Source: Cordylochernes scorpioides (Eukaryota; Arthropoda; Arachnida; Pseudoscorpiones; Chernetidae). Taken from it: 64,000 nt of DNA. Under the pieces are notes generated by a model. That model was not told the origin of the DNA. It saw only the letters and a program-made list of their open reading frames with translations, and made no database searches. The DNA is taken from the NCBI GenBank assembly GCA_030710605.1, contig CP092863.1:143436623-143500622 (forward strand). The letters are read 5' to 3'. Each line of letters starts with the position of its first letter. Positions within the stretch are counted from its first letter, which is position 1. The position numbers and the translations under genes were made by a program. Below, piece after piece: positions 883 through 61,940 of this stretch.

Positions 883-904
883 TTATATTCTAAAATATAA
901 CCAT

Positions 905-2871: not shown

Positions 2872-3060
2872 AATAATAAAAAATAGTAAACGGGTCAGGT
2901 GTTTATATTAAAAACAAAAAATAGGCATTTTCTGAACACTAACATGAGCTTTTTTTAGATGTCATAGCGCCATCTAGTGGAACAGAAATCAACTAAACGT
3001 TGATTTATCTCGTCAGTCTAGGGCGGACTTTATTCCATGAGATCTATAAAGGATATAATG
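2872..3060 (+). repeat. Repeat family G joined to a family B fragment
   Basis: Positions 2872-3008 match the family at 15255-15415 and 30204-30382 (core GCGCCATCTAGTGGAA, then AACGTTGATTT). From about 3009 the sequence becomes the 5' half of the family B hammerhead on the minus strand (core CTGACGA present, stem II and GAAA box lost), so this is a chimeric junction. Confidence 0.7.
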
Positions 3061-4050
3061 GAATTCACACAATCTGTCAAAAGTTTACTTTGGTCAAAAT
3101 TTCATTTAAAAAGTCATTCATCATACACATTCGATATGTAACGCTAAACAATTAAATAATATTCGAATATAATAGAAAATTTTCAAATAAAGAACCTTTA
3201 TATCCATTCATTCAATTATATTTACATATATTTTAGTAATCTGATTACTTCTTTAAAAAAAAAAGACATTCTCTTTTTAAAGCATTTGTAAAGAAGAAAA
3301 TTATTAAGCGTATTTATTTATGTAAAAATTCTATTTTAAAGAAAAAAAAGATACCTTTGAATAATAAATATAGTCAAATCTAAATAAAAATCGAGAATTC
3401 ACAGAGAGAACAATGTTGCCAAAGCCAGTTTTACGCTCTACCAATCAGAAAATACTTCCCCTTTAAATCTTAAATCCAATGGGGTAGCTTGAAAGAATTC
3501 AACCAATCAGGGATATATATTCAAATTAGGGTGAGCCAATGAGAAATCAATAGTCGTACTCAGCGGAAATCAATAAAGTTACAAATACAATTGAATTTTG
3601 GTCTCACTGAACAATTACTCTGTGGTGGTCGTCTGATCATTATCATCGTCTGGAGATTTTCTATTCTGATTAAGCTTATTAATTATCGTCTGAACGACTT
3701 CCAATATGTTTATTACGTTGTTCATTAGTCAAATACTTCTTTCTTTTTTAAACATTTTACTTTATATAATGATTTTAATTATAGATTTATCTGGGAGATA
3801 TGTAAATAGGTATTTATTGGTCTCTCTTCTTGTTTTCTAATGTTGTTATGCAAATATAAAAAATTTTAAAAGTTATTATTGAATTTATGTTTGTTAATTT
3901 ATTGGATTTTAAAAGATGAAGATTTTATATTTTTAATTTTAAATATTCATAGTTTTTTTTTTTTATGTCGCGTAATTTTGTTAACCCCAGTCAATTTCGA
4001 ATTTAGGTAACTATATGGATTTTATTCACCAATTTGATATCTGTTGGTAA
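3061..4050. other. AT-rich stretch, no gene seen
   Basis: The sequence is AT-rich with homopolymer runs; no ORF with coding character and no repeat match inside the window. Confidence 0.5.
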
Positions 4051-8324: not shown

Positions 8325-11300
8325 TTAGCTTGTCTCAGCCCTTGTTCTGGAAGGAAATCTATCACGGCCTGTGTTCCCTAGCAGAATGGAATGTTGTTCT
8401 TCAGGGTCCAGGTAGGGCTTCATCCGAATGACATGAACGATATCCTTGGATTTCCGTGATCGGGGAGACGGGTCCACGGGCTCTACTTCATACGTAACTT
8501 CTGAAAGCTTCTTGGTCACCTTGTAGGGACCGAAGTATCTCTTCAGTAGCTTTTCTGAGAGCCCTACTTTTCGGATGGGAGTAAAAACCCACACGAGATC
8601 ATCCTTCTGGTAATAGACTGGAGTATGTTAATGGTCGTAAAGTCTACGGTCTTTCGCCTGTGATTGTAGAAGGCGTGATCGGGAGAGTTGACGCGCTTCC
8701 TCAGCTCTGGTCACAAGTTCTCCAACGTAGTCGTTAGAGATCTCATCTGGTAGGTAGGGTAGTACGGCATCGATGTAGGTCTCGGCCTCGCGGGCGTGGA
8801 CAAGAAAGAACGGAGTGTAGCCGGTCGCCTCCTGTTTAGCAGTGTTGTAAGCAAAAGTTACGTAGGGTAAAACTTGGTCCCAGTCCTTCTGCTCGACACC
8901 TGTGTACATGGACAACATGTCTCCCAGAGTTTTGTTGAACCTTTCAGTCAGGCCGTTGGTCTGGGGATGGTAGGCCGTTGTAAATCTGTGCACAATTCCG
9001 CACAGAGCATTGATCTCTTTTATTACTTGAGAAATGAAATTTCTTCCGCGATCTCTGTTATCATTTCTCTAGGAGCTCCATGCTTCAAGATAACATCTTC
9101 AACCAGGAACTTAGCTGTTTCGATTGCTCCTCCGTCTGGGATCGCTTTCGTTATGGCATACCTTGTCATATAATCGGTGCACACAATAATCCAACGGTTT
9201 CCATCTTTAGAAACTGGAAATCTTCCAAGGAGATCGACCCCGACCTTATGGAATGGCTTTTCTACAGGTGGTATGGATACAAGTTGTCCAGCCGGACGTC
9301 GAGGTAATTTCTTCCTTCGTTGACACTCCCGACAATGGCTTACATATTGGCGAACAGTTCTATAAAGGCCAGGCCAATAGAATCGTTTCTTCACTTTGTC
9401 ATACGTTCGGGCGAAACCCAAATGCCCAGCTGTAGGAGCGTCATGTAAATCTGCCATAACTTCCGATCTTAAGTGTTTAGGAATCATCATAAGCCAGGGT
9501 CTTCCAGTTGTGCTATAGTTTTTCTTGTATAAGATGCCGTCGATAATGCTGAATTCCTTTCTGGTGTAGCCTGAGTTTAAATTATCGATTATTTTAGCTA
9601 AATCCGGGTCTTTAGTCTGCTCTATATCGACGTTGGTTAGTGACATCACAGCACTTGGTTGATCGTTCTCAAGCGGGCTCCTTGACAGACAATCGGCATC
9701 CTTATGTTTGCGTCCGCTCTGGTAGATAACGGTCACGTCAAATTCTTGCAACTTCAGCGCCCATCTTGCCAAACGGCCAGAAGGATCTTTCTGTCCTACC
9801 AACCAACATAGAGAATGATGGTCAGTGACAACCGTGAATGGTCGACCAAACAAATATGGGCGGAATTTGCTAATAGACCAGACTACAGCAAGGCATTATT
9901 TTTCCGTTGTAGAATAGTTATTTTCAGCCTTTGTCAAGCTTCTAGATGCATAAGCTATAGGCCGCTCCTTTCCACCTTGTATTTGTAGAAGAACAGCTCC
10001 AATACCATGTCCGCTTGCATCCGTGTGTAGATGGGTATCAGCGGATTCATCAAAGTGTCCTAAGACAGGCTCTGAAATTAGAGCTGTTTTAAGGACTTCA
10101 AACGCTTTCTCTTGAGCTGCATCCCAATAAAATTGTTTTTCAGTCTTCAGTAGGTCATGCAAAGATCTAGCTTTGTCGGCAAAGTTCTCAATAAATCTTC
10201 GGTAATAGGAACATAATCCAAGAAAGCTCTTCAGTTCAGAGATATTCCTTGGCCTCGGAAATTTAGAGACGGCTTCAACTTTATCTGGATCTGGATGAAT
10301 TCCATTGGCGTCAACAAGGTGTCCCAAAATCTTTATCCTCCTTGATCCAAAAAGACACTTTTTGTGGTTCAAGCTTAGTCCAGCTTTCTGGATGCAGCTT
10401 AATACAAGTTGTAGACGACGTAGATGTTCTTCAAAGGTAGGTGCGTAAACTACGATGTCGTCCAGGTAGCAAAGGCACATGTTCCATTTAAGACTGCCCA
10501 GAACACTATCTATCATCCTTTCAAACGTTGCTGGAGCATTGCAAAGACCGAAAGGCATTACTTGGAATTCATACAGCCCATCTGGAGTGATGAAAGCAGT
10601 TTTCTCCCTGTCTTTTTCGTCCACTTCAATCTGCCAATACCCGGACCGAAGATCCATCGTGGAGAAGTAACTAGAGCAGGCTAAACTGTCCAAGGCATCG
10701 TCAATGCGTGGCAGCGGGTAAACATCTTTTTTTGTTATCTTATTTAATCGACGGTAATCTACGCAGAATCTCCAGGTCCCGTCTTTCTTTCGAACTAGAA
10801 TAACTGGAGATGACCAAGGACTTTCAGAGGGCTTCACGATGTGATTTTCAATCATCTTGTTCACTTCATCTTGAATTAGTCGTCGTTCACTTGGTGCTAC
10901 TCTATAGGGCCTCTGTTTGATAGGAGAGTGGTCTCCTGTGTTTATCTTGTGCTTCACAGTACTGGTGGGCTTAATAGGAGTACTCCCAAAGTCAAATATG
11001 TCGATAAACTCGTCAAGGCATGAAACAAGCTGTAACCTTTGAATTTCAGACAGCCCTGGATCTAGAGTAAGGTTTATCTTCTGTGACCATTCACGTGACT
11101 TTAGCTGCGTTTCTTGTAACTTATCGCTGGATTCAATAAGACTGCAGATATTCCCATTCCCATAACTTTCCATGGTGCACATATTCATTCCTGATGGAAT
11201 CAGTTGCGGCCAAGACGCTCCATTCGCCACCCAAATGCTACCTCGGCCGTGTCGAAATGTAACCAATGAGTTTGGTATAAGAACTTCCTTTCTTAATAAT

Positions 11301-11859
11301 AAGTCCTTAGAAGTTGAGATTAAAACATCTCTAACACCGCATACTTCTTCGTTTATCACACTGATCTTCTTTATTGATTTAGGCGGGATGACAAAGTCGT
11401 CGGAAGCAAACAATCTCTGGTTTTCCTCCTCTCGAGATTCCAGGACGGAGGTTTCCCCGAGGTGGAGTTCATTTCTGCCACAATCAATGACGGCTTCGGT
11501 GGCCTTGAAGAAGTCCCATCCGAATATGATGTCATGGCTGCATTCCACCATAACAACGAATTCAAAGGATATCTTCAGACCATTAACTTCTATGTTCAGG
11601 ACACATTTTCCTAGGGTCTCTATTAAATTTTTATTTGCGGCTTTAAGAATGGGACCTGGTTCTTTGAAGAGAGGTGTCTTTAGTTCGCGTCGAAATTTGT
11701 CTTAAATAACAGAAAAGTCGGCTCCTGAATCCACCAATGCTTTAATTTTGCGTCCATTTATTTCGACCATAACAAAATTTTCTTTTAATTTAGCGGCGAT
11801 ATACCCTCGAGGATTTTCCTCAATGGCGACCTCACCCCCGTTAGAAGCCGCTCCACTTA
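8325..11859 (-). pseudogene. pol: Gypsy pol (PR-RT-RH-IN), broken
   Basis: The aspartic protease site is visible just upstream of 11704 (VDSGADFSVI). Reverse transcriptase follows, with the catalytic YLDD near 10470. RNase H shows DASGHGIGAVLL near 10010 and TDHHS near 9815. Integrase has the HHCC zinc finger near 9310-9440, the DDE core from about 9260, and a GPY motif (YFGPYKV) near 8540. Lesions are a stop directly after the protease motif (11702-11704), a stop in RNase H (9896-9898), a 2-nt insertion in the integrase core near 9050-9056 and a stop before the GPY domain (8628-8630). The pol frame is -1 relative to gag. The rest of the sequence is well preserved, so the breaks are young. 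Confidence 0.93.
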
Positions 11860-21104: not shown

Positions 21105-21300
21105 TAAAGGGTATCTTGCGCCATCTAAAGGAATAAATATCAACTATTCATTGATTTTTTAATTATTCCAGAATTGCCCAAATACCCATTCTTGATTAAT
21201 CAAGTAAAGTTAACCACGTACGCATTTCGGGCTGTTGGCCCTCATCAGCGTGGTGCAAGCTGTACATCAACGGTTTTACGGTTTAATAACCAAAATGTAT
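21105..21300 (-). repeat. Repeat family A copy with hammerhead
   Basis: It is colinear with 32500-32660: GCGCCATCT, AACTATTCATTGATTTTTTA, CCAGAATTG, GATTAATCAAG, then the hammerhead region and GGTGCAAG. Confidence 0.8.
21213..21254 (-). ncRNA. Hammerhead ribozyme motif, family A, copy 1
   Basis: Minus strand order: stem I ACCACG, core CTGATGA, stem II GGGC with loop CAACA and GCCC, core GAAA, short stem III ATGCGT with triplet GTA, then CGTGGT, which is fully complementary to stem I (6 bp). All core positions match the consensus. GUA is an allowed though less usual cleavage triplet. Activity not shown. Confidence 0.78.
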
Positions 21301-21339
21301 GATTTTTTGAGGAGTAAATATATGATTCTTTCAATTATT

Positions 21340-21657
21340 CCAGAATATAGATGGAGAATTTGCCAAAATTCTAGCCAAAGATTTGGCCCAGCTACCTTTC
21401 CAGCAAAACACCTCTTTGGTAGATTGTGAAGATTCCATTAGATCCCGTGTGGATCTCATGGAATAAAGTCTGCCCTAGACTGACGAGGGCCATTAGCCCG
21501 ACACCATGGTCTCTAGGTGGACGCTTATCAGTTTGCCAAAGCTGGTGTTGTGGCTTTGTCACAGACCTGAGGCCGCTAGTTTGTGGCGACGGTCAATAGA
21601 TGGCGTCAGATTTTGACGTTTATTTTGACGGGAGAAGCGCCTTTTGCTTCTATGGAT
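21340..21657 (+). repeat. Repeat family B unit, plus strand
   Basis: A full unit homologous to the minus-strand units at 479 and 31451. It lies just downstream of the oppositely oriented family A copy. Confidence 0.8.
21468..21522 (+). ncRNA. Hammerhead motif, family B, copy 2 (core mutated)
   Basis: Same arrangement as 658-712: stem I GTCTGCCCTAGA, core CTGACGA, stem II GGGC/GCCC, triplet GTC and return strand TCTAGGTGGAC. The second core box is GACA instead of GAAA, which should abolish cleavage. Confidence 0.7.
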
Positions 21658-21800
21658 ATTCCAGAATTGACCATATTTTTCACATACAACAAAAAGTTGC
21701 GGAAGGATGATATTCATACACCAAAAGAGGCACATCTACCGTTTTTGATTCATTTAGAACAAGGCATTATATTTATATGTGTATTACAGCTTAAACATAT

Positions 21801-30384: not shown

Positions 30385-30436
30385 TATACATATAGAAGCA
30401 TAGGGCGCCTCTCCCATCAAAATACTTATATATATA

Positions 30437-30963: not shown

Positions 30964-30999
<36 letters not shown>

Positions 31000-31060
31000 T
31001 ATTTTGACGGGAGAGGCGCCCTATGCTTCTATGGAATAATTTCCTCCCGGCAAATTTTTC
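30962..31060 (+). repeat. TA microsatellite and family B end fragment
   Basis: A (TA)n run is followed by TTATTTTGACGGGAGAGGCG, the end of family B. Confidence 0.65.
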
Positions 31061-31085
31061 ATATATATACAGTATATTAGATAAT

Positions 31086-31410: not shown

Positions 31411-31450
31411 TTAAATATGAATTGATATATTTTCAAATATATATATTTAT

Positions 31451-31900
31451 TTAGATGGAAATCTTGCCGGGAGGATATTGATTTAAAGAGACAAAGGTCA
31501 CCTCTCCCGTCAAAATAGACGTCAAAACTAGACGCCATCTATTGACCGTCACCGCAAACTAGCGGTCTCGGGTCGGTGACAAAGCCACAACACCAGCTTT
31601 GGTAAACTGAGAAGCGTCCACCTAGAGACCATGGTTTCGGGCTAATGGCCCTCGTCAGTCTAGAGCGGACTTTATTCCATGAGATCCACACGGGATCTAA
31701 TGGAATCTTGACAATCTGCCAAATAGGTGTTTAGCTGGAAAAGTGGCTGGGCCAAATCTATGGCTAAAATATAGATGGAAATTTTCCCGGGAGGATATTG
31801 ATCTAAAGAGACAAAGTCGCCTCTCCCGTCAAAATAGACGTCAAAACTAGACGCCATCTATTGACCGTCACCGCAAACTAGCGGTCTCGGGTCGGTGACA
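31451..31900 (-). repeat. Family B tandem dimer (320-bp monomer)
   Basis: The start motif TAGATGGAAATYTT occurs at 31451 and 31771 and the two units are colinear; the second is cut after about 130 bp. A direct tandem of hammerhead-containing monomers is the organisation of retrozymes. Confidence 0.8.
31616..31670 (-). ncRNA. Hammerhead ribozyme motif, family B, copy 3
   Basis: Stem I GTCCGCTCTAGA, core CTGACGA, stem II GGGC-CATTA-GCCC, core GAAA, ACCATGGT with GTC, return strand TCTAGGTGGAC. All core bases are consensus and stem I pairs with a bulge and G-U wobbles. Confidence 0.8.
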
Positions 31901-32062
31901 AAAACCATGGTCTCTAGGTGGACGCTTTTCAGTTTGCCAAAGCTGGTGTTGTGGCTTTGTCACCGACCCGAGACCGCTAGTTTGCGGTGACGGTAAATAG
32001 ATGGCGTCTAGTTTTGACGTCTATTTTGACGGGAGAGGCGACATTTGTCTCTTTAAATATAT
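31895..32062 (+). repeat. Inverted partial family B copy
   Basis: It begins at the hammerhead GAAA/stem III region (AACCATGGTCTCTAGGTGGA) and runs to the unit end, in opposite orientation to the neighbouring dimer, forming a long hairpin with it. Confidence 0.78.
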
Positions 32063-32200
32063 TTATTTATTTATTTATAACTACCAGGGAGCACAGAACA
32101 CCAACTACCCGGGGAGTCTACTAAACCAACTAAACGTTGATTTAGCTTGTTTCAAAGATATTTGGCTAACCTAATTTATTGATAAATTAAGAAAAGACAA

Positions 32201-32240
32201 CCACGTACGCGTGTCGGACTATTGGCCCTCGTCAACGTGG
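32201..32240 (-). ncRNA. Degenerate hammerhead, family A, copy 2
   Basis: Stem I CCACG/CGTGG is kept, but the first box reads TTGACGA and the second GACA; probably inactive. Confidence 0.6.
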
Positions 32241-32599
32241 TGCAGACTGTACTTTTACGACCAAAAATTTGGTCCCAGACGTTTCCTGAGAAATTAAGAA
32301 ATACTTCTCATATATTCAAATCTTTTTGTAGATTTTATATGTAATTTTTCTATCTATTATTAATCTCTTATAATAACTTCTTAAATGAAAATATATAACA
32401 AAGATGAAAGAAAAAAATAGTACAAATGTGATATTGTACTGGGATAAGGTTCATAAATTATTAAAAAGGCATCTCCTTATCGTGCAACTGGAAGTTGTTG
32501 ATGGCTTGCGCCATCTATCGGAATCAACTATTCTCGTTGATTTATAATTATTCCAGAATTGGCCAATTACCCATTATTGATTAATCAAGAAAAGCTAAT

Positions 32600-32637
32600 C
32601 ACGTACGCGTTTCGGGCTGTTGGCCCTCATCAGCGTG
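32600..32637 (-). ncRNA. Hammerhead ribozyme motif, family A, copy 3
   Basis: CACG, CTGATGA, GGGC-CAACA-GCCC, GAAA, palindromic ACGCGT with GTA, then CGTG. The consensus core is complete; stem I is only 4 bp here. Confidence 0.75.
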
Positions 32638-32865
32638 GTGCAAGAACGACCAAAAAACTGGTCATTAAGGCATCCTGAAAAATCATGAAACGGGTAGTTA
32701 AGACCAGAATTGCGTGAGACCGCGACACAATGTGAAAAAAATAGTACAAATATGATATTGTACTGGGATAAGGTACATAAATTATGAAAAAGGCATAGAT
32801 GGCGCAAGCCATCAGTAACTTTCAGTTGTACGATAAGGAGATGCCTTTTTCATATAAGATGAAAG

Positions 32866-37627: not shown

Positions 37628-39430
37628 TCATATATCTATATAGGAAGTAAATGTTCTATTGAGGATGAAGGAAGTTACAGGCGTCACCCAATCTACAATA
37701 TCCTCTGGCGAAATGTCGACACAGAACTCTTGGTATGAACTTTCGGTTGGTAGGTCTTGGAGATATTTGTGGTTGTTGGACCCATTGTTGTGGTTGTTGG
37801 AAAAATTTTGTGGTTGTTGAAACCTTTGTTGTGGTTGTTGGAAGTTGTTCTGTAACATTTGGTGGTTGTATGGATCATTATGTATTATTGGGCCACCATT
37901 ATAGGTATATGTCTGCTGTGACGGTATATAACTCTGTTGCATATTGGCATAGCTACCATGTTGGAATGTTGCGCCTACACTTCTATCTCCATAAATATAG
38001 TTTGGTTGAGTGCTATACGGAACAGAATATGGGGTTTCTACAGGTGAGTTATTGTATTCTGGGGCCATAGGTGGAGATACTATGGGTACAGTGTCACAAT
38101 AATTGTTGGGAATGTCCAATTGTGGAGAGGTATTAACTATCTGGACCGCCTGTTTAATTTGGTCCCAATTGACATTCTCCAAGTTTCCAAAGATGGAAAT
38201 AGGGTCATTTGGTAAAAATATCTGTTTATATTCTTGATTTTTTTGAAGATCAATATCCTGTGAAGGAGAGTTCATTTCTACGTCACCAACTTCTTGGGTT
38301 TCACTCTCAGGTTCTGTCAGCTTTTCCAAAGGAATTATAACAGGTTCCACGGGGTCTACAACCTCTACATCAGGTTCCCCCGGGGAGAAAGGTATCATAC
38401 ATTTGTAGGGATAGTATTCAGGAGGGTTACGCTCCTCGTACATTATCTGTATGTACTTCTCATCACTTATTATTTGGACTTTTTCAACTGGAGGAGATAT
38501 TGTGATGGTCTCTGGTGTCCTCCATGGTATGCTTGCCTTCATTCCGTCATCCATACAATATCTTCTTCTACGTCTTTCTCGCACCTCTTTCTTAATGGCG
38601 ATGGCGACTTCTTTGCAGACGTATTCTCTCTCGCCCGGTATGACCTCGAAGTAACGTTTCTCAACAAGATCGTCCTTCCAATGGACTCTCCTTTTCCCAG
38701 AAGTGTCCATGGGAATGTCTGGAGTTGGATCTGTAGTCGGTTTCTGGATCTTTGGGCTTTCCCTCTGACCTCCAAGAACACTCATTTGGTCTAAAATCTC
38801 ATCTAAAATGGATACACTAGTAGTTCCAACATTTATATTTAGACATTCCTTGGTAGCTTCGTCTACCTTTTGTATTTTATTTGGAGATTGGTTTTCACAG
38901 AAATCCATCTTTCTTTTCAATGTCTTAGCAGCACCATGCTCTGAAACTTCTACATTATCGTCTTTAAGATCAGATTTACTCTTAGATTTCTTGTCTTTTC
39001 TTCTTTTAACACAATCTACATAGATCACTTTCTTCCATTTAGTGACAATATCTACAGCTAATGTACTAATGTCTTTATCGTCGTATTTACTAAATTTCTT
39101 AACAATTTTAGGGATTTTGTTATCCCCCAATAATCCAAGTGTCACTGGAAGTTCTTTGAGAAGTTTTAATAATTCCCAAATGTATTTTTCTTTCTTTCTT
39201 TTGGGAAGATCAGAAATCCAGTCATTCAACATTGCCCACAATCCATTCTCAATTATCATCTTGAGAATGTGTTCATCCGTGGCTTGGAGTATTTGACAGA
39301 AGGTTGTACGGTTTTTAAAACTATTGGAATGTTGTTTAAGTAAATTAACTAAACTCTCAAAGTTTACTTCACTTTGACAACCTTCAGTTAGATTTACACT
39401 TTTCTTCAATGTCTTATATAAAGATTCCAT
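37628..39430 (-). CDS. PPP1R10-like: PNUTS-like protein B, C-terminus frameshifted
   Basis: The frame gives 600 residues from the Met at 39428-39430 (MESLYKTLKK). Residues about 20-130 resemble the TFIIS N-terminal (LW) domain. A basic stretch lies near 145-185. RRVHWKDDLVEKRYFEV near residue 260 matches the RVxF-type PP1-binding region of PNUTS, followed by the conserved IPWRTPE and EKYIQIMYEERNPPEYYPY. The tail is Gln/Asn-rich. The CCCH finger (CRHFARGYCRLGDACNFLH) is encoded intact but in another frame ending at 37656. Compared with the copy at 58973, the A-run at 37801-37805 is one base short, which explains the shift. PNUTS targets PP1 to chromatin and RNA polymerase II. No introns; function here is inferred. 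Confidence 0.85.
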   Translation of the reverse strand: MESLYKTLKKSVNLTEGCQSEVNFESLVNLLKQHSNSFKNRTTFCQILQATDEHILKMIIENGLWAMLNDWISDLPKRKKEKYIWELLKLLKELPVTLGLLGDNKIPKIVKKFSKYDDKDISTLAVDIVTKWKKVIYVDCVKRRKDKKSKSKSDLKDDNVEVSEHGAAKTLKRKMDFCENQSPNKIQKVDEATKECLNINVGTTSVSILDEILDQMSVLGGQRESPKIQKPTTDPTPDIPMDTSGKRRVHWKDDLVEKRYFEVIPGEREYVCKEVAIAIKKEVRERRRRRYCMDDGMKASIPWRTPETITISPPVEKVQIISDEKYIQIMYEERNPPEYYPYKCMIPFSPGEPDVEVVDPVEPVIIPLEKLTEPESETQEVGDVEMNSPSQDIDLQKNQEYKQIFLPNDPISIFGNLENVNWDQIKQAVQIVNTSPQLDIPNNYCDTVPIVSPPMAPEYNNSPVETPYSVPYSTQPNYIYGDRSVGATFQHGSYANMQQSYIPSQQTYTYNGGPIIHNDPYNHQMLQNNFQQPQQRFQQPQNFSNNHNNGSNNHKYLQDLPTESSYQEFCVDISPEDIVDWVTPVTSFILNRTFTSYIDI

Positions 39431-40138
39431 CGTATGTTTTATAAAAGTTATATATAAATATATCTGATATAACAAGTGATTTTTTTTTTGTTTTTTTATT
39501 GGAATAATTAATATATTTATAATTTCTCTAACTCTCGTAATAGAGGTAATAATGTATGATGATTAAATAATGAATAAAATTAAATAATGAATAGAATAAA
39601 TTTGTTTTTTCACAGAGTAATAAACTTTCTTGAAAACAGATTTTCTGGTAATTACTTGAAATTATTCTGCTTTGGTGAATGTTCTAAAATTTGTTTAAAA
39701 TAGAAATTTTTGAGATCAATATAAAGTTGTCCCAAAAGTTTGTATTTTTCTTATTACTTGGCGAATAATATTATTACGGCAAATATATAATAATACATAA
39801 TACAATTACTTTATACATAATACAAAGACATTATATATAACGGTGAATAATATTATGATGAATAATAATGAAATTTCAATTTTTTGTAAGTGTTTATGAA
39901 CCTTTGGGACAACCTTGTAAAGAACATCACAATTCAGAAAATTGTATTTTATTTTAAATTGAGGTAATAATATAAAACATACATTTTTATATTTTATTTT
40001 AAACTTAAGGACGGGCGATGATTGCAGACTCGTTCATTAAAAAGGCCACTGACCTATATTTTACAAGTTTTAATTGTTTTAAACTAAATTAAATTTCGTG
40101 TCATTTTTTGAAATTTGATTCTTTATTTTTTTTACGTG
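39431..40138. other. AT-rich flank, duplicated
   Basis: Upstream region of gene B; conserved with 60609-61318 as part of the segmental duplication. No further gene. Confidence 0.5.
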
Positions 40139-41226: not shown

Positions 41227-41676
41227 CTAAGAGGTTCTAAATTGGGTATATATATCTGGCAAGTCAATCTTTCTATTGATACTATTTTTATTCTCTAATG
41301 AGCTCCAGCTTTCTAAAAATAAACGGCAATGTTTTTCTTTGATGTTTTGATGAATTATAGATGTGTGATCGAAGTCTGGAGTGTGACTATTGTTGAATGC
41401 ATGATCTACTAGTAGAGATGTCGGGTTATGGCGCTTTAGTGCGGATTTGTGTTGGTTAATTCTTTCAGATAAAGGTTTGCTGGTTTCTCCTATGTATATT
41501 GCCTGGCAGGATTTGCATGGTATTTTATAAACCACATTCGCTCTATCTTCTGGCTTGTAGATTTGTTTTGTATCAGGGTGACGGAATACCCTTGGTATAC
41601 CAGGCCAATGTTCTAGTAATTCTGTAATTGGAGTTGTACTAGATTTCTCTATAAGATGTAGAAACTCACTGGCTTA
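41227..41676 (-). pseudogene. Penelope-like element, GIY-YIG fragment
   Basis: The open stretch of 150 residues (about 100 of them from VVYKIPCKSCQ) has VYKIPCKSCQAIYIGETSKP followed by LSERINQHKSALKRH, the GIY-YIG endonuclease signature with the CxxC found in Penelope-like retroelements. It is the C-terminal end of the polyprotein; the reverse transcriptase part is absent and a stop precedes the fragment. Penelope elements are known carriers of hammerhead motifs. Block 2 retains only the upstream 80 bp (61941-62045). Confidence 0.82.
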
Positions 41677-41790
41677 ACTGTCACCGAGATGGTACATGGA
41701 GCTCAAGACAGAGATGGCTGGCGTCGTGTTTGGGATGTAATATGTACAGTACAACGTTTGATCGCGAATAAAATTATTTATAAAAAAATA

Positions 41791-41935
41791 CAGTTAAACC
41801 TCTCTATAGCGCCCCCTTTTGGGACTCACCAAATTGGGTGCTAAAGACAGGTCACTTTTAATGTAAAATGTTTAAATCGGGCGCTATAGAGAGGAAGGCG
41901 TTATTTAGAGGGGGCTCTATAGACAGGTTTAACTG
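41791..41935. mobile_element. pogo/Tigger-like MITE, copy 3
   Basis: Inverted ends CAGTTAAACCTCTCTATAGC and TA flanks; shorter than copy 1 by an internal deletion. Its counterpart in block 2 is 62142-62285. Confidence 0.8.
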
Positions 41936-42235
41936 TATATGCGTGTAGAATAGTAGTTGAAAATGATGCAATAAGTTTAATATGTAAATATGTTAAAACA
42001 GCTTATTAAAAAATCTTGTGAAATTTAAACTGTACATACATAAGCGTAGAAATCATTAATATTTGTCAAAAAAAGGATAAACAGTACTGTAAATTGAAAG
42101 AAGCAAGACGATGAAGCTATATCAAAACTTAAATAACTCCAATGGAAGTGTTACCTAAAAATTAATAAATATATATTTTTTGTGTATTTTTTTTCTTTTT
42201 ATATATTTAAAGTTATGATTTGAAATAGAATGATA
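41936..42235. other. AT-rich, no gene
   Basis: Part of the duplication; nothing else seen. Confidence 0.4.
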
Positions 42236-42237
42236 AA

Positions 42238-42480
42238 GAAAAAAGGCATCTCCTTTTGATGCAACTATAAGTTGCTGATGGCTTGCGCCATTTATCAAAA
42301 TAAACATAAACTATTCTCGTTGAATTTTAATTTTATTCCAGAATTGGTCAAATAGATAGTTGATATTTATTTCGATAGATGGCGCAACCCATCAGTAACT
42401 TTCAGTTGTATGATAAAGAAATTACTTTTCAATAATTTATGCAACTTATCTCAGTACAATATCACAATTGTACACTTGTA
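42238..42480. repeat. Family A inverted pair
   Basis: GGCTTGCGCCATTTATC and, inverted, GATAGATGGCGCAACCCATC face each other; no hammerhead part is kept. Confidence 0.7.
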
Positions 42481-43060: not shown

Positions 43061-45757
43061 CTATTGAGGATGAAGGAAGTTACAGGCGTCACCCAATCTA
43101 CAATATCCTCTGGCGAAATGTCGGCACGGAACTCTTGGTATAAACTTTCTGTTGGGATCTGTTCTGTTGGCAGGGAGGGTATTGGTAGATTTCTGTGGAT
43201 ATTTATTAAATTGTTGTGGAATGTATGAACTATTTTGTGGCACATTCTGGAAGTGATTTGGTAATTGTTGGATCCCTGATTGTTGGTGTTGGTTTCCTAT
43301 TTGTTGGTGTTGGAATCCTGATTGTTGGTGTTGGAATCCTGATTGTTGATCTTGGAATCCACATTGTGGCTGTTGGAATCCATTTTGTTGGTGTTGAATT
43401 CCTGATTGTTGGAATCCTGAATGTTGGAATCCGAATTGTGGATTTTGAAACAATGATTGTGGTTGTTTAGACCCTGTTTCGGAATGTTGAGATCCTGTTT
43501 TAGACAGCTGAGACCATTTTTGTGAATATTGAGACCCTGTTTGTGACTGTTGTACGTCTTGTTGTGGTATTTGGTATTTATAAAGTTGGGATTGCATTAC
43601 TGGACCACCATCATTTAAACATGTCTGCTCTATCGTCGAAATAGGACTCTCCTGTATATTGTTTGTATTTTTAGCTTCTTTATTTCTTGCGGCGACACAA
43701 TTTAAATTGTGAAAATTGCTAGGATGACTTATGAAAGCTCTAGCCAATGAGTCTGGAATGTTTGCGCCCGGAGTCATGGTAAAAGTGACGTACTCAGTTT
43801 CCAGGGCCTTAGATTTTGATGAGGTGAGAACAGGACTCAAATGGTTCTTGGCTGGCGGTGTTGGATTGTCAATAATGGGAAGAGAATTTGACATACCCAC
43901 TGAATTGATCGCCTTCTTAAGATGTTCCCAATTTAGATTTTCCAAGTTGGGAATAACGTCTTTACCATTTGAAGATACTTCGGTAGATGCAACGTTCTTA
44001 TTTATAGATACCATGGAGGTATCTCCATTTTCTATCTTTTGCTTCTTAATTGGTGATGGCTTATCAAGGAATTCCATTTTTCTTTTCGTTGCTTTATTTG
44101 TACTTTGGACAGGACTCAAATGTTTCATGGCTGGCGGTGTTGGATTGTCAATAATTGGAAGGGAATTTGTCATACCCACTGAATTGATTGCGTTTTTAAG
44201 ATGTTCCCAATTTACATTTTCCAAGTTGGGGATAATTGGAATGGGATCATTCAACAAATCTATTTGTTTGCTATCAGATTCCTGATGTATTTGAAGTGAT
44301 ATCTGTAATGGAGAATTTATTTCTATGTCTTCACTTTTTATTACAATCTTTTCAAGAGGAGGTGAAATTGTAATAGGCTCGGGTGTCCTACATGGTAAAC
44401 TTGTCTTCATATGGTTTTCCTGTTTTTCCTTATAATATCCAAGTGCTCGCCTTTTTATATTCTTTTTCTTAATATCAAGGGCGATATTTTTACAGACATC
44501 TCTTTCTCCGAGAATTACCTCGAAATATCGTTCTTCTACAAGATCATCCTTCCAATGAACTTTCTTTTTTACGATAGACTTCGTGTAAATGTTGAGGATT
44601 GGTTTTAGAGTCGAATTCTTTATCTCAGAATCTTGTATATTGTTTTCAAGAACTTTCATTTTTTGCTCTTCGTCTTTATCATTTGAAGATACGTCGGTAG
44701 ATGCAACGTTCTTATTTATAGATACCATGGAGGTATCTACATTTTCTATCTTTTGCTTCTTAATTGGTGATGGATTTTCTGAGAATTCCAATTTTCTTTT
44801 TAATGCTTGATTTGTACTTTGGGCTAGCAAATCGGAATTTTCGCTAATGTTCGAATTTGAATTTTCACCATCGTCTTTCAAATTTTTTGACAATTCTATT
44901 TGCGAATCTGGTGAAGATAATTCAGCAGAAATTTCACAAATGTTTTTATTCCGGATCTCAGAATCATGTTTACTATTTACAAGAACTTCCATTTGTTCTT
45001 CTTCTTTATCATTTACAGAAACTTTGGTTGATTCAATATTCTTTATTTCCATATGGGTATTTTCTTTTTCAATCTTCTGCTTTTTAATAGCTGATGGATT
45101 ATCAGGGGATTCCAATTTTCTTTTTAAATATTTGGTTGTACTTGATCCTGAGGAAGAGGAATGTTCGCCAAAAATCGAATTTAGATCTTCAGCTTCTTTT
45201 TTTGTATTCTCTTTCAATTCAATTTGCGTATCTAAAGAATCTGAAAGAAGGATTTCTTGATTTGAATTAATCTCAGACGAATTGGCTTCAATTAGTATTT
45301 TTTTATTCTTCTTTTGAATCGGCTTAGATATTTTTATTTTTTTATTTGCAGAGAAAGTTTTTTTGTTTACCTTTGTCCATTTGTTGACAATGTCTTCGGC
45401 TAAATCTTTTATTTCTTTACAATCTTTTTTAATATAAGATTCAACTTTTTTAGGAATTGGACTTTGTTTCAAAAGTTCAAGAGTGATAGGAATTATTTTA
45501 TAAACTTTTAAAATTTCCACGATGTAATTTTCAACATTTCTCTTTGGTGGATTTGATATCCAGTATTTTAGCGTTTCCCATAATCCATTTTCGATCAACA
45601 TTTCAAGTACATTTTCATCTGTAACTTGAAGCATTTGGCAATAGCTCAATCGGTTTTTAAAACTCTTCGAATTTCTTTTAATTAAATTTGCCAAATTTTT
45701 GTCATTTTTGAAACCTCCATTTGTAGATAAACCTTGAGTCAAAATTCTACTTTCCAT
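43061..45757 (-). CDS. PPP1R10-like: PNUTS-like protein C, intact
   Basis: The protein has 898 residues in one exon. Residues about 20-130 form a TFIIS-N-like helical domain (IENGLWETLKYWI). Three basic nuclear-localisation-like motifs of the type KRKLE...PIKKQKIE lie at 211-229, 319-338 and 557-575. KKVHWKDDLVEERYFEV (398-414) is the RVxF-type PP1-docking region, followed by RTPEPITISPPLEK. Residues 507-550 are repeated at 601-643 (IPNLENxNWEHLKxAINSVG). The tail from about 700 is Gln-rich, and CRHFARGYCRLGDACNFLH near the end is a CCCH zinc finger (spacing 7-5-3). Order and motifs match PNUTS. It should tether PP1 in the nucleus; the lack of introns suggests a retrogene origin. Best candidate functional gene of the window. 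Confidence 0.88.
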   Translation of the reverse strand: MESRILTQGLSTNGGFKNDKNLANLIKRNSKSFKNRLSYCQMLQVTDENVLEMLIENGLWETLKYWISNPPKRNVENYIVEILKVYKIIPITLELLKQSPIPKKVESYIKKDCKEIKDLAEDIVNKWTKVNKKTFSANKKIKISKPIQKKNKKILIEANSSEINSNQEILLSDSLDTQIELKENTKKEAEDLNSIFGEHSSSSGSSTTKYLKRKLESPDNPSAIKKQKIEKENTHMEIKNIESTKVSVNDKEEEQMEVLVNSKHDSEIRNKNICEISAELSSPDSQIELSKNLKDDGENSNSNISENSDLLAQSTNQALKRKLEFSENPSPIKKQKIENVDTSMVSINKNVASTDVSSNDKDEEQKMKVLENNIQDSEIKNSTLKPILNIYTKSIVKKKVHWKDDLVEERYFEVILGERDVCKNIALDIKKKNIKRRALGYYKEKQENHMKTSLPCRTPEPITISPPLEKIVIKSEDIEINSPLQISLQIHQESDSKQIDLLNDPIPIIPNLENVNWEHLKNAINSVGMTNSLPIIDNPTPPAMKHLSPVQSTNKATKRKMEFLDKPSPIKKQKIENGDTSMVSINKNVASTEVSSNGKDVIPNLENLNWEHLKKAINSVGMSNSLPIIDNPTPPAKNHLSPVLTSSKSKALETEYVTFTMTPGANIPDSLARAFISHPSNFHNLNCVAARNKEAKNTNNIQESPISTIEQTCLNDGGPVMQSQLYKYQIPQQDVQQSQTGSQYSQKWSQLSKTGSQHSETGSKQPQSLFQNPQFGFQHSGFQQSGIQHQQNGFQQPQCGFQDQQSGFQHQQSGFQHQQIGNQHQQSGIQQLPNHFQNVPQNSSYIPQQFNKYPQKSTNTLPANRTDPNRKFIPRVPCRHFARGYCRLGDACNFLHPQ

Positions 45758-47335: not shown

Positions 47336-47382
47336 CGAGCAATGCTCTTTCTTATAATAGTTAATAATAGTAATAAACGTCA

Positions 47383-47470
47383 AAACTTGACGCCATCTAA
47401 TGACCGTCGCCGCAATCTAGCGGCTTTAGGTCGGTGACAATTCCATGACACCAGATTTGGCTTTAACGAG
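47383..47470 (-). repeat. Family B fragment
   Basis: GACGCCATCTAATGACCGTC and AGGTCGGTGACAA match the left part of the family B unit; no hammerhead. Confidence 0.65.
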
Positions 47471-50544: not shown

Positions 50545-51964
50545 CACTGCGTGACATTGAAAATGGAACACCAAGAAATAGTGGCCAGAAAATTATGCAA
50601 ATTTCAGGGTAGACGCGCCTAACCGAGTTATGCAAATGATGTAAAATGCGCAGCTCTCGTGCGCACATGGAGTAAGATATAAGGGAAGGAACTTGTAGAA
50701 AGGACAGTATTCGTGTCGTTATTTCTTCAAGGAAAATCATTGTAGAAATTTTGTTCTTGTGTCAAAAGACACGTGTAATAACAGAGAATGCCAGGTCACC
50801 GTAAACGGAGGCAGTTCAAGCAGACAGACGCTTTTACGAGGGGCATGGTGATCGGACTGAAAAGGGCAGGTTGGTCCATACGTCAAATCGCAGCTGATAC
50901 ACACCTTGGTGCGTCCACGGTGCACCGACTGTGGAGAAGATGGTTGGAACAAGGAAATGTGGCAATTTATAGGAATGTCGGTGCAACCAGAGTGACGTCA
51001 GCACGTGTGGATCGGCGTATCCTTCGACAAGCAGTGGCGGCCCCACAAGCCACTTGTACCGCCATCCTGCAACATGTGCAAGACACCCTAGATCATTCCA
51101 TCTCGACCAGAACCATTTCCCGTCGATTGGTTGCTAATGGCTTGCACTCATGCCGTCCCCTAAGAAGACTGCCATTGACCCCCACCGAATAGGCGCCAAC
51201 GTTTGGAATGGTGCCGGGCTATATCGACGTGGATGACGGAATGCAACAGGGTCGTGTTCTCAGATGAGTCGCGTTTTTGCTTGTCCAGTGATAGTCGCCG
51301 TGTACGCGTGTGGCGTCGACGTGGAGAAAGGTCCAATCCGGCAGCAATTGTGGAACGCCCCACCGTGCGACAACGTGGAATTATGGTTTGGGGCGCAATC
51401 GCGTATGATTCCAGGTCACCTTTACTTCGTATTCGGGGCACTATGACGGCCCAACGATACGTTGATGATGTGCTGCGACCGGTGACACTCCCCTACCTTC
51501 AGGGGGTACCCAATGCCCTTTATCAGCAGGATAACGCCCGACCGCACACTGCTCGCATTAGTCAACAAGCTCTGCAAGATGTACAGATGCTTCCCTGGCC
51601 ACCGTACTCTCCTGATCTCTCACCAATCGAGCACGTCTGGGACATCATTGGACGCCGTTTGCATGCCTTGCCACAGCCGCGTTCAGAAGACGAACTGTGG
51701 CAAATGGTTGAGAGGGAATGGAGAGCCATCCCTCAGAACGCCATCCGTACTCTGATTGACTCTCTACCTAGACGTGTTGCTGCGTGCATCGCCGTCCGCG
51801 GTGGTCCTACTTGTTACTAAGCCGACGCCGTTCTCGCTCTGTATTATGACTATCATTTTGAAATAAAGATCACTTATTGTTCGTCCCTGTCTCTCTCTGT
51901 CTGCCGAGTTTCATCACTTTCTGGCCACTATTTCTTGGTGTTCCATTTTCAATGTCACGCAGTG
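50545..51964 (+). mobile_element. Tc1-like transposon with perfect 47-bp TIRs
   Basis: The element is 1420 bp, bounded by TA on both sides. Inverted ends begin CACTGCGTGACATTGAAAAT and are identical for 47 bp. The single gene is intact except for one small insertion, so this is a young copy. Confidence 0.93.
50788..51820 (+). pseudogene. Tc1 transposase, one frameshift
   Basis: The first frame (50788-51192) holds the paired-type helix-turn-helix domain (MPGHRKRRQFKQTDAFTRGM, GASTVHRLWRRW). A 2-nt insertion near 51189 creates a stop; the second frame (to 51820) has the catalytic domain with VVFSDESRF, YQQDNARPHTAR and PDLSPIEHVWD. By my count 32 residues lie between the second Asp and the Glu, two fewer than the usual Tc1 DD34E. 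An intact protein would bind the TIRs and cut and paste at TA. Confidence 0.9.
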
Positions 51965-52118: not shown

Positions 52119-55100
52119 CTAATCTAATGCTTTTAAATATACAACATTTTTTGTTTTACCTGTTTTATCAGGTGTATGTACATATAAGTTTGAAGGGTTT
52201 CCTACACGTGAGCTAGCTACATAGAGCTGCCCATGTGAGAAATTTGGAACTTCCAAATTAAGTCTTTCAAGGATTGTCCTTGCGCTTTGTTGATAGTCAT
52301 TGAAAAAGTAGTTCGCACAGGAAACTGTAATCGCTTAAATTCAAATGGCAGATCAGGTGGGAAAAGGGGAATACGGGGCAACAGTACATCTTGCCCTTTG
52401 AATTTCCTATTTAATATGGTTTTTCGATGATATTATTCATCATAGTTTTTACGGAAAGTCGAGTACCGTTACAGAGTTTGGGCGGGTTGATGTTCCGTAG
52501 TAAAATGATTGGCACTCCAGTTTTCAATTGTAGAACATGCGGTGGAAATCCTGGCAAGTCTAGGCAGTTCAGAAATTCAGTCGGATAGTTCACCGCTTCA
52601 TCTTCATTTAACACCGTATCAATTGATGTATACGTTCTCTCTTCACCCGGAACCCAATTTTGTACACAGAAGTTTATATCATTGACATCGATGTTTTTTG
52701 CAGCAAGTATCGCTCGTTCACTAAGCCACTGAAGATTTCGGTAATTTTGGGCTATATTTTGGAAAACTTTCTGAATCAGTTCTTCTTTGCTTGATGTTAG
52801 TGTGCAAAAGCTTGTGGGCAATGTAATGCATTGCGAGGTTGGGTCGATTGTCATTTTCCCATTTCCAATATTTAGTAGTTGCTTAGCGAAACGCTCTGCG
52901 GATGCATCATTTTGCAGATGAACACGCATATTGGTTTTCAACATCAACTTCTTTACCTGAGGCCATAAAACAAATGACTTGAGACATGCATTCAATTCAT
53001 CTGCTGGCGTTGAGCGAGGTATAACAGGTAAAGTTTGACGAAAATCACCAGACAGTAGAATGAGAGCGCCACCAAAGGAATTCCCATTTGCCCTCAAATC
53101 TTTAAGCGTATGATCGAGGGCTTCCAATCCTTTTTTTGTGAGCCATTGTACATTCGTCCCATATTATTAGTTTGCACGTTTGAAGAACCTTGCCCATTCC
53201 GGAATTTTTCGAGATATTGCATGTTGGCGTTTCAATTGTGTGCAAATTCAGCGGCAATTTTAGTGCTGAATGCGCTGTTCGGCCACCATCCAAAAGTGTT
53301 GCAGCAATTCCAGATGAAGCGATTGCCACTGCGATTTCATTCCGTGATCGAATGGTTGCCAAGATGAGATTTATGAGAAAGGTTTTGCCTGTGCCTCCGG
53401 GCGCATCTAAAAAGTACAATCCGCCCCTTTGATCGGAGATTGCTTGCATCAATGTGTCATATGCAATTCGCTGTTCTGGAACCAGTTTCGATAAATCCTT
53501 TCAACAAACACACTCAAATCATCGACATCAAAGTGGGGTTTCACGTTGCAAATCACGATCATAGGAGTCATTCGCAGATCTATTCGGTGCACATAATCCC
53601 ATCTGTCTCAATCTCTTATTAGCGATTGCCAAGCAAATATCTTCGATCAAAACCAACGCCCTATTATATATCTCTGGTGTGAATTGAAGGTCCAGATTTG
53701 CTGCTCGTAAATGATGTAGGATATCTTCACTCATGGAATCTCTGTATTTTTCCCAAAGATCCATTGGCTTGGATGGGGAAACATGTTGTCAATAGTATTG
53801 CAAATAACATGCGAATTTGATGTGGTTGAGCAGTACTTGATGCATCCGCAAGTGTTGTGTCCCAATGTGCATCGTTTTCAAGAAGGTATAATTCTTGGCA
53901 AGCTTCTCGATAGGTGGAACATACTTTGCCATTTACTGTTCTTAGTTCTTGGAAGGATTCTGGTCCACATACGTTAACTAACAGTAATCTTAAGTAAAAG
54001 CATTCTTGATTGCTTGGATGAACTGTATACAGACGACCTAAAGCGTCGGACGAATATATATTCGGATGTCCTTCAACTGGTTTGCCTTGTTTACGTCGTT
54101 GAAACTTTTTTTCTGATGCATTCCAGGTGTAGAATTTCGGAACATCTGAGTAACGTAGAGTTTTTGCGAACAAATCACCTCTGCACAATGAGAAGAACGC
54201 AGTTAGCGTTGTTTGCGGTGGCGATGTTGCTCTTTCACGTACATTTTCCGCTGTAAAATACACTCGCTGCCCATTTTCGAGATGTACTGCCAAATGAACA
54301 ACTGTAGGATAACGTTCATGAATTGAAAATGATAGAATACGCCAAACTGCCTCATTGCTACAGATGTAGCGTCCCAATTGATAGCGTTGTACCTCATCGA
54401 TTGGTGCAGATGCATTTTTAACTCCAAAAACTGCCATATCGCTTCCTTTGTTGACATATTTGCAAATGTATTTGATTGACTTAACTGAATTGCAATATTC
54501 AACATTGATGTGTGCTTTGAAAGTCCTAGAGAGTAATGGTGAATAAGGCACAATCCAATGATTATCAACTTCGATAGCAATGTTGTGAACTTTTATAGTG
54601 ATGCATTTACCGCCATCTTGAGTTGAGCGCCGACGATATTGTGGATATCCATCAACTCCAGTGATAGTTTTCGGCGTGTAAATCTCTTGGATAGCGCTTA
54701 GTACATTTTCCATCCTTCATGCACGGAGAATTGTTGTTTATCGCGCCACACGGACCGTGAATCATGTTTTTGGCTACAACTTCGAATAAATCTGGATCAA
54801 TGGCGATGTCTGGGATTTCTGCTGAGATGACCTGGTCAATTTGGTCTGGTGTGATCTTGTCGATCAGCCAAATCAAAATATGTGCATGTGGTAAGCCTCT
54901 CTTCTGCCATTCAATAGAATACATCCAGCATTGTGACGCTCCAAAAACACGATATTTGACAATGAAATGCATAAGAGCTCTCAATTTATGGTTGAACACA
55001 CGGGCGATGATATCAGGCCGATCCGAAGGTGATTGTCCAGGCAACAAAAGTTCTCTATTTTTCTTCCCACCTAGGATTGCATGTAAATGTTATGAATAAA

Positions 55101-57106
55101 TCTGGACGGCCGTATACACGAACATATGTCATTGCATCTCGTGCGTATTCATGCATGTGCCGTGGACTTCCTGCGAATGTAGCTGGCAGTATGATCATTT
55201 TCCCCAGATCATTGGGATTCTCATCAGTAGCAATTGCATCTCGTAGATGAATATAATTTTCAGAGCGGAGTTTGGTTTGGTTCAATCGAATGAAAAGTAG
55301 TCGTTCGGTCTCGATTTTTACATACATATCGACAATGTATTGCTGGAACAATGTTCGACATTTCAAAATGTGATTGTCTCTGTTGGCACGACTCATCAAC
55401 CGATATGAATAGAAATTCATTGCACTGATTTTTTTTATCGATCTCGGCACCTTTTTGGATCTCTCATCTTAATATTGAAGTGATATCCATCTTCTCCTTG
55501 CCAGAACAAAATGGGATATTGTAAGGCATCATATGAGCGATGAGTTTCAGATACTCGTTGAAGGTTATCATCTCTGCGATGAATTACTATATCGCGGGAA
55601 TTCTTCGCCAACTATGAGGATTGCCACTTCATCTATTGTTGGTGCATTGAATCGCCTTTCGTGTTGACCTGCTGGTGTTTTGTCAGCTCTAATGACAACT
55701 ACGTAATCATCAGTAGGCATTCGCTCGATGGCTGTCTTGAACAGTCGAACTAATTCGTTGTGTTGATCTAACAAATTTTGTAATGAAGACACAATTTCTT
55801 GATTTGTGCTGCTATTGAATCTACAGCGTTGATTAACTTGGTCATCGGTGTTTCCCATGAAATAAATTTGCAGAAATTTGTGATCTGAATCCGGCAGAGG
55901 TAGAAGAGATCCAACACGATGGCAAATTTGCCCTTGCACTTTAAACGTTGGCATGTAATTGTCCCGAATGATTTCTGTTGCACTGAACGATGTCATTTGA
56001 AAGCATGAATTGTACTTTCGAATGTTTCTCAAGAAATGCTTTGATTGGCTTGTTTCACCTGATATCAACGTTGATAAAGGTTCAGGAGGTAAATGCAATT
56101 CGGGCAATTTCACTTTACCACCTGCGCAGCACATTCCTGGAGTCTCATTCTTGAATTTAAACGCATCACAAAATTTGCATAACTTGTCCATTTTATCAAT
56201 AACAACACTTGGATGCAGACTGTAATCATATTCAGCATCATAATGGAACGCGGCCCGGTTCAAGTCAGCATGTAGTGTTCGTCTGGAGCGAACATTGCGT
56301 TCTCGATTGGTTCCCAACCGTGTTTCCCGCTGGGCAATTGATTCATTTGAGCGACCCTGAGCAGTTTGTATTCGATTATCTTCCAACCTTGCTTTTCGTT
56401 GTTGAACTGTCTCATTCGAGCGACCCTGAGCAGTTTGTATTCGATTATCTTCCAACCTTGCTTTTCGTTGTTGAACTGTCTCATTCGAGCGACCCTGAGC
56501 AGTTTGTATTCGATTATCTTCCAACCTTGCTTTTCGTTGTTGAACTGTCTCATTCGAGCGACCCTGAGCAGTTTGTATTCGATTATCTTCCAACCTTGCT
56601 TTTCGTTGTTGAACTGTCTCATTCAAGCGACCCTGAGCAGTTTGTATTCGATTATCTTCCAACCTTGCTTTTCGTTGTTGAACTGTCTCATTCGAGCGAC
56701 CCTGAGCAGTTTGTATTCGATTATCTTCCAACCTTGCTTTTCGTTGTTGAACTGTCTCATTCGAGCGACCCTGAGCAGTTTGTATTCGATTATCTTCCAA
56801 CCTTGCTTTTCGTTTTTGAACTGTCTCATTCGAGCGACCCTGAGCAGTTTGTATTCGATTATCTTCCAACCTTGCTTTTCGTTGTTGAACTGTCTCATTC
56901 GAGCGACCCTGAGCAGTTTGTATTCGATTATCTTCCAACCTTGCATTTCGTTGTTGAACTGTCTCATTCGAGCGAGCTTGAGCAGTTTGTATTCGAACGG
57001 CTTCCAACCTTGCATCTCGTTGTTGAACTGATTCTGAAGCTCGTGATATCTTTTTCGATCGTCCTTGAGAGGTAGATCGACCAATCGATTTACGCTTGGG
57101 AGGCAT
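52119..57106 (-). pseudogene. Helitron Rep-helicase, multiply frameshifted
   Basis: Start MPPKRKSIGR at 57106. The N-terminus has eleven 23-residue repeats, then the Helitron-like N domain (HYDAEYDYSLHPSVVIDKMD). Rep shows the HUH motif in GLPHAHILIW (about 54865-54894) and the tyrosine motif YICKYVNKG (about 54450-54470). The helicase has GGTGKT (about 53380), IIWDECTM and GDFRQTLPV, and ends near 52119 after ASSRVGNPSNLYVH. Frameshifts occur near 55600, 55060, 54660, 53760, 53500, 53130 and 52260, with some internal stops. Rep would nick and join single strands in rolling-circle transposition. Confidence 0.88.
56335..57040 (-). repeat. 69-bp in-frame repeat in Helitron Rep
   Basis: Nine near-identical units plus two diverged edge units encode NETVQQRKARLEDNRIQTAQ and GRS. 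Because 69 is a multiple of three and the unit lacks stops in several frames, other frames and the plus strand are also open; these are not genes. Confidence 0.92.
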
Positions 57107-57312
57107 AACTACCGATGATTCTTTTTGTAAATAAAAAAAATTAACCGTGGTGTGCAAACTTTATCGATTAGATAAAATAAAAATATTTTATTTTCAAGCT
57201 TCAGATAAAAAACTATAAAATATATCAAAAGTAATTTTCAAAACTAAAGAGGTGACTTGACATATTTCTGAAAACACACACACACAGACAGATTCATTTA
57301 TATATATATAGA

Positions 57313-61890: not shown

Positions 61891-61940
61891 GATAAAATTT
61901 CAATAAGACTTAGAGAATTGGCTGTGGTTCTAGAGCCGTT

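Follow-up and report, generated by a model that had tools for sequence, protein, structure and literature searches.

Non-LTR retrozymes of metazoans have previously been described from coral, mussel, axolotl and a tick. Their characteristic features are a type I hammerhead ribozyme, a repeat of 150-450 bp, a GC content <50%, long target-site duplications (TSDs) and a highly folded RNA that is made as circRNA (Cervera and de la Pena 2020, PMC7229834; this and all other papers except PMC11167929 are cited here from excerpts). According to a review, metazoan retrozymes contain no conserved motif that would reveal the retrotransposon mobilising them (PMC7761336; likewise PMC7229834), and Penelope-like elements (PLEs) have been named as candidate carriers, mainly on the grounds of shared hammerheads and other features and of co-occurrence (PMC7761336, PMC7229834). 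A guide to the curation of transposable elements counts inverted pseudo-LTRs (pLTRs) and short 3' extensions among the peculiarities of PLEs, and mentions that retrozymes may depend on them (PMC8969392). The PLE Pen2a of Adineta is composed of direct pLTRs and an inverted pLTR within a 9-bp TSD, with a 31-bp tail that is optional on one inverted pLTR; its head-to-head inversions have palindromes at the junctions, for which self-priming is the favoured explanation (PMC3846280). In the PLE PAc of Anolis, for which a hammerhead is reported, both DNA strands are cut and extended, reverse transcription (RT) begins within the RNA, the tail is situated between two RT start sites, and AT-rich DNA is preferred (PMC11167929).

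The window analysed here, the whole 64-kb stretch of Cordylochernes scorpioides DNA, contains in seven places (three insertions and four fragments; Table 1) a repeat, termed family B. The reading preferred for it is that of a new metazoan non-LTR retrozyme family. The evidence is drawn from one window, seven places and DNA sequence only. Retrozymes are already known from arachnids, namely from the tick Argas monolakensis (PMC4918200); what is new here is the family and its PLE-type footprint, and not the kind of element. It is considered probable that family B is a non-autonomous retroelement of this kind that is inserted by the reverse transcriptase and endonuclease of a PLE.

Table 1. Features of the window, with positions counted from its first nucleotide and strand where given.
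Feature	Position	Strand	Remarks
Unit 1, full family B unit	31454-31773	-	320 bp, GC 0.472
Partial second unit, without hammerhead	31774-31902	-	129 bp
Inverted piece, from hammerhead AAACC to tail-less end GTCTCTTT	31903-32054	+	152 bp
Left TSD, AAATATATATATTTATTTA	31435-31453	.	19 bp, 1 mismatch vs 32055-32073
Right TSD	32055-32073	.	pairs with 31435-31453
Optional 3' tail, ends CCATC	31454-31484	-	length measured, 31 nt
Type I hammerhead	31616-31670	-	coordinates and descriptor match; predicted cut between 31627 and 31626
Hammerhead CTGACGA box	31652-31658	-	unit 1
Hammerhead GAAA box	31635-31638	-	unit 1
Helix III palindrome, ACCATGGT	31628-31635	-	two pairs closed by a CAUG tetraloop, or an 8-bp pairing of two copies
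Short frame start, ATGGCGTC	31531-31538	-	runs without a stop past both end sites; 18 aa, or 28 aa if the tail is counted
Second family B insertion	481-899	-	TSD 481-495 / 885-899, 15 bp, perfect
Second insertion, unit with hammerhead core at 677-700	496-820	-	one unit and 5 nt
Second insertion, inverted piece, ends at tail-less site	821-884	+	64 nt
Third family B insertion	21336-21667	+	TSD 21336-21346 / 21657-21667, 11 bp, perfect
Third insertion, inverted tail piece between TSD and unit	21347-21364	-	18 nt
Third insertion, direct copy without tail, GACA hammerhead	21365-21656	+	repeat comparison
Subfamily 2 fragment of the family B 3' end, tail present	30997-31068	+	3' end within 31062-31068, made uncertain by AT repeats
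Subfamily 2 fragment of the family B 3' end, tail absent	30392-30424	-	repeat comparison
Internal family B fragment, unit positions 172-260	47372-47460	-	3' end at neither site
Family B fragment, unit positions 51-123	3009-3081	-	3' end at neither site; ends right after CTGACGAG
PLE-type GIY-YIG endonuclease fragment	41227-41535	-	Pfam PF01541, 6.1e-05
Second hammerhead family, minimal	21225-21248	-	descriptor match at 21248
Second hammerhead family, minimal	32610-32633	-	fails type I descriptor
Second hammerhead family, degenerate	~32211-32235	-	side observation
ORF with TFIIS-N/Med26 domain	37628-39475	-	domain match
ORF with TFIIS-N/Med26 domain and CCCH zinc finger	43061-45757	-	domain match
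Helitron remains: Helitron_like_N, PIF1 helicase pieces, ORF with STPR repeats	52411-57157	-	domain matches
Tc1/mariner-type transposase pieces (HTH_Tnp_Tc3_2, DDE_3)	50788-51820	+	domain matches

The original prediction placed the element at 31451-32062; a real insertion does lie in that interval, with boundaries that are corrected here to 31454-32054, and is composed of unit 1, the partial second unit and the inverted piece. The predicted direct tandem with a 320-bp period, one copy full and one partial, is confirmed by two repeat blocks spaced 319 and 320 bp apart and by unit lengths of 320 and 129 bp. An inverted partial copy starting at the hammerhead was also expected and is found as a 152-bp piece whose first bases are the AAACC that follows hammerhead helix II; at the junction (GTGACAAAAACCATGGTC) the A's are common to both sides, and over 157 bp the complementarity of the inverted arms, 31481-31637 and 31902-32058, is 97%. 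The sense strand of the element is the minus strand at 31454-31902, and the only hammerhead of the locus is that of unit 1, as the second unit ends before reaching it. No ORF of at least 100 aa is present in 31454-32054, and ATG-started frames reach at most 53 aa. The 19-bp TSD encloses all of this, and when equally sized intervals were placed at random in the window 400 times, 2 scored as high; the composite is therefore most readily explained as a single insertion. Its recognition as such goes beyond the original prediction, as does the finding that the inverted piece, the optional 31-nt tail and the positions of the ends point to Penelope-like machinery. A satellite-like repeat, a rearrangement after insertion or an assembly error is a very improbable explanation: duplication or misassembly likewise gives tandem and inverted copies, but here the TSD encloses the whole composite, and the same plan is found at two other loci, each with its own TSD.

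At these other loci the TSD scores were equalled by 3 of 400 random placements (481-899) and by 15 of 400 (21336-21667, weak by itself), and the TSDs of two of the three insertions are clearly AT-rich. The copy at 496-820 carries, in addition to one unit, 5 nt (CCATC) at its 5' end, which are either the trace of a longer template or a product of chance. The inverted tail piece at 21347-21364 matches the 496 copy at 17 of 18 positions, first TSD bases included, and unit 1 at 15 of 18, a level of agreement that, in either control, none among 2000 random 18-mers attained. Three bases common to units 1 and 2 and the inverted piece (within the part that all of them cover) are missing from the 496 and 21347 copies, and these three segments diverge from one another by 1-3.3% (tail and gaps not counted), compared with 5-15% between the trio and the 496 and 21347 loci. 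On account of the shared bases and the lower divergence inside the trio, the three segments appear from their sequences to have been copied from one template. Three positions that vary among them are consistent with private changes, and units 1 and 2 differ by ~4% when tail and gaps are counted. The fragment at 3009-3081 breaks off at helix II, at its other foot, where it is joined to a repeat that is also found near 15378, 30280 and 32123, possibly by a template switch at the hammerhead.

The classification as a candidate retrozyme, proposed originally, is supported by size, low GC, type I hammerhead, tandem arrangement, long TSD and stable RNA fold; the part that holds less generally is the tandem, which is clear at one of the three near-full-length loci in the window (31454), the others having about one unit or less. 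Compared with the published metazoan features (PMC7229834), family B is 320 bp long with a GC of 0.472, is non-coding, has a type I core and a self-paired RNA, and is flanked by TSDs of 19, 15 and 11 bp (>4 bp), while the tandem with a hammerhead per copy amounts at the 31454 locus to 1.4 units with one hammerhead. Retrozymes of this kind have many genomic copies, for which the count here is the seven family B places in 64 kb. The two-pair helix III with tetraloop is that of axolotl HHR_Amex2 and of invertebrates (PMC7229834). Unlike the published elements, for which circRNA, the intermediate by which the class is defined, is documented, family B is known here from DNA, and its inverted pieces and 31-nt optional tail find no mention for metazoan retrozymes in the excerpts of that paper. 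The putative retrozyme of Argas monolakensis, compared by description only, likewise combines an arachnid host, a type I hammerhead and a compact RNA (PMC4918200). Plant LTR retrozymes are also non-autonomous, with hammerheads in a dimer layout, but differ from family B by their type III hammerhead, LTR, PBS, PPT and 4-bp TSD (PMC4918200).

On the sense strand the hammerhead reads GTCC-GCT-CTAGA, CTGACGA, GGGC-CATTA-GCCC, GAAA, ACCATGGT, C, predicted cut, TCTAG-GT-GGAC, the core motif and the cut site being assigned by the hammerhead consensus. In helix I an internal loop separates two paired parts, and helix II has 4 pairs. A type I descriptor, composed after these copies had been seen and with loop-loop contacts not part of its score, finds three matches in the window (31658, 700 and 21248, all minus) vs none when the whole window was dinucleotide-shuffled 100 times. 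The core is intact in unit 1 and in the 496-820 copy; in the 21347-21656 copy GAAA is changed to GACA. Single-strand folds form helices I and II, with helix III absent, and two copies co-fold as a double hammerhead at -54.4 kcal/mol vs 2 x -23.6 kcal/mol separately. Cutting alone and cutting as a dimer are both possible, because helix III is like that of axolotl HHR_Amex2, which its authors liken to the invertebrate form; for axolotl hammerheads cleavage is better in the dimer, and those of invertebrates cut well singly (PMC7229834). Folded as a circle, the 320-bp unit has a predicted energy of -110.5 kcal/mol (z -5.2; none of 200 shuffles equally stable), and as linear RNA it gives z -4.9 (none of 100 shuffles equally stable). 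A claim of covariation for this fold was rejected: across 197 cells of base-pair comparison 177 are unchanged, 10 are changed on one side, 7 are broken and 3 are changed on both sides, and all three of the last are the pair 208/223 (A-U at the 31454 locus, G-C in 3 other loci), probably one event, so that a single pair is too little where most pairs are invariant.

Searches with Rfam gave no match at gathering score in the whole window, 7 matches in 3 kb (every one a microRNA model under cut-off) and 2 matches with the 91-bp hammerhead stretch alone, no hammerhead among them. We suppose that the Rfam hammerhead models miss family B since its two-pair helix III is too short, and this null result is not counted as evidence that the hammerhead is absent. 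Exact hammerhead patterns had no match in viral contigs or in genome contigs, two sets that do not represent animal genomes. A second, minimal hammerhead family in the window has a helix II like that of family B, CCACG/CGUGG as its helix I and, in helix III, a single pair closed by a tetraloop, and so is similar to the minimal PLE hammerheads that the review describes (PMC7761336); two of its copies lie <600 bp from the family B insertion at 31454-32054.

Ten ends of family B copies were examined in the window, seven direct 3' ends and three outer ends of inverted pieces (placement tolerance ~3 nt, and up to 6 nt for 31062-31068), and eight of them cluster at two sites separated by 31 nt. The 3' sequence of family B reads CTCCCGGCAAAATTTCCATC. 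At the CCATC site lie 31454, 496, 31062-31068 and the inverted end 21347 (3 nt on); at the tail-less site 31 nt upstream (GTCTCTTT, in subfamily form GCTTCTAT(GGA)) lie 21656 (direct end of the 21347-21656 copy), 30392 (30392-30424 fragment) and the inverted outer ends 32054 and 884, all four without the 31-nt tail. The two sites were recognised only after inspection of the data, and the chance of the tail-less ends, ~1e-5, is a rough estimate made after the fact with the two off-site ends left out. These off-site ends (47372 at unit position 260, 3009 at position 123) belong to fragments, the TSD comparison covering the three insertions. Since none of the ten ends is at the hammerhead cut, and the two end sites are 142 and 173 nt from the predicted cut, family B insertions do not begin at the ribozyme cut. 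In all three TSD-flanked insertions the direct and inverted sides end at opposite sites: at 31454 and 496 the direct side has the tail and the inverted side lacks it, and at 21347 the arrangement is reversed. The inverted piece at 21347-21364 and the two off-site fragment ends pull in opposite directions on the PLE reading; taken together they make it very slightly more probable and a LINE carrier very slightly less so. Two other ideas about the inversions were discarded, a terminal-inverted-repeat DNA element (the pieces are unequal, 152, 64 and 18 nt, and present at one end only) and a rule that inversions start at the hammerhead (seen at 1 of 3 loci).

Twin priming by a LINE yields TSDs of this length and 5' inversions. 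That a LINE and not a PLE moves family B, the inverted pieces being ordinary twin priming, would be compatible with the TSDs of 11-19 bp and the 5' inversions, but it is improbable: random internal priming predicts scattered outer ends, whereas those of the inverted pieces are recurrent element 3' ends in 3 of 3 cases, and the family B 3' ends in the window have no poly(A). Nematostella repeats with 15-bp TSDs have been compared to LINEs (PMC4918200), which also speaks for such a carrier.

PLE mobilisation accommodates these features: partial tandem, inverted unit, optional 31-nt tail and TSD, all present in family B insertions, are also features of PLEs such as Adineta Pen2a and Anolis PAc, and in these PLEs, as would be the case in family B, the ends are set by internal RT starts. 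PLE-type proteins of C. scorpioides likewise speak for this reading. Multimeric or circular hammerhead RNA would be produced, its hammerheads cutting singly or paired through the ACCAUGGU palindrome; a PLE enzyme would make a staggered DNA cut of 11-19 bp, and both DNA ends would prime RT inside the same RNA at the two fixed sites. At the 31454 locus one end would start at CCATC with the tail and copy 449 nt unbroken (1.4 units), while the other would start at GTCTCTTT without the tail and copy 152 nt as far as the foot of helix II; the two cDNAs would then be joined at the shared A's, giving the inverted piece. Because the first stretch spans an intact cut site and exceeds one unit, its template would have been a circle or an uncut multimer; the latter may apply, since insertion of PAc in vitro needed no cleavage (PMC11167929). 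The second stretch extends ~10 nt beyond the cut site, so the hammerhead it copied was apparently uncut. An RT stop at folded helix II is plausible and is based on one locus, the inverted pieces stopping elsewhere at the other two; self-primed cDNA is another way to the inversion.

PLEs carry an RT/EN ORF and a minimal hammerhead type, and family B has neither, its insertion at 31454-32054 being devoid of any ORF of at least 100 aa that could encode RT and GIY-YIG. The main rival takes family B as the pLTR of an autonomous PLE and the locus as an ORF-less pLTR-pLTR insertion, and not as an independent retrozyme. PLE pLTRs do bear hammerheads (PMC7761336), and those of Adineta hold the first ORF codons, 12 aa or 22 aa with the tail (PMC3846280). 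Comparably, an ATGGCG frame in unit 1 is open through both end sites, and the same holds, as far as the sequence goes, for the copy at 21347-21656 and for the fragments of subfamily 2; its 15 differences are distributed 6/5/4 over third, second and first codon positions, with 6 of 12 changed codons synonymous. However, unit 2 and the 496-820 copy carry frameshifts in this frame, and no protein with the 28-aa N-terminus was found among proteins of 311-990 aa (a weak query with few words). The family B hammerhead moreover has a second helix I segment that the minimal PLE type lacks (excerpts of PMC7761336). A further point against the rival, and one that weighs against the PLE-mobilised reading as well, comes from the only PLE fragment in the window (41227-41535), which has no family B sequence beside it. 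Over 50 aa the product of this fragment matches a C. scorpioides protein at 100% identity, and that protein bears RVT_1 and PF26215; proteins of this species combine these two domains, one (P0125) also with GIY-YIG, and they are read as PLEs. Overall the pLTR explanation is considered unlikely, although less so than the other alternatives, and a retrozyme mobilised by a PLE is kept as the best reading.

In the open-access PMC literature no report of PLE-type ends on retrozymes was found among the matches listed, as far as excerpts of these go. The positions at which single insertions end, together with their inverted pieces, give a direct footprint of the mobilising enzyme; if the pattern is true genome-wide, the mobiliser question is answered, and natural insertions become available for studying PLE integration. 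A wider proposition is offered tentatively, with somewhat less than even confidence: animal retrozymes would be parasites of PLEs, their insertions would preserve a record of how the enzyme works, each of the two target strands would prime on the RNA at its own one of two fixed internal sites, which are 31 nt apart, the folded hammerhead may stop the second cDNA (so that the head-to-head piece begins at the ribozyme), and a PLE pLTR whose ORF start was kept may be the origin of family B.

The window also contains other repeats. The best matches of a gypsy RT ORF (9896-11551) are in C. scorpioides, one with 96% identity covering 72% of the query and one with 98% covering 54%, further copies in that species being more distant. 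Together with the match of the PLE endonuclease fragment, the other protein compared, this fits an origin of the window from that pseudoscorpion or a very close relative. Similar 21-bp repeats near 58938 and 63609 suggest additional copies of the TFIIS-N/Med26 ORFs. A stretch of ~0.9 kb is present twice (41589-42479 and 61936-62827, 92-96% identical), and both copies end in a fold-back repeat that is also found near 32407-32569, 32734-32854 and 1-100.
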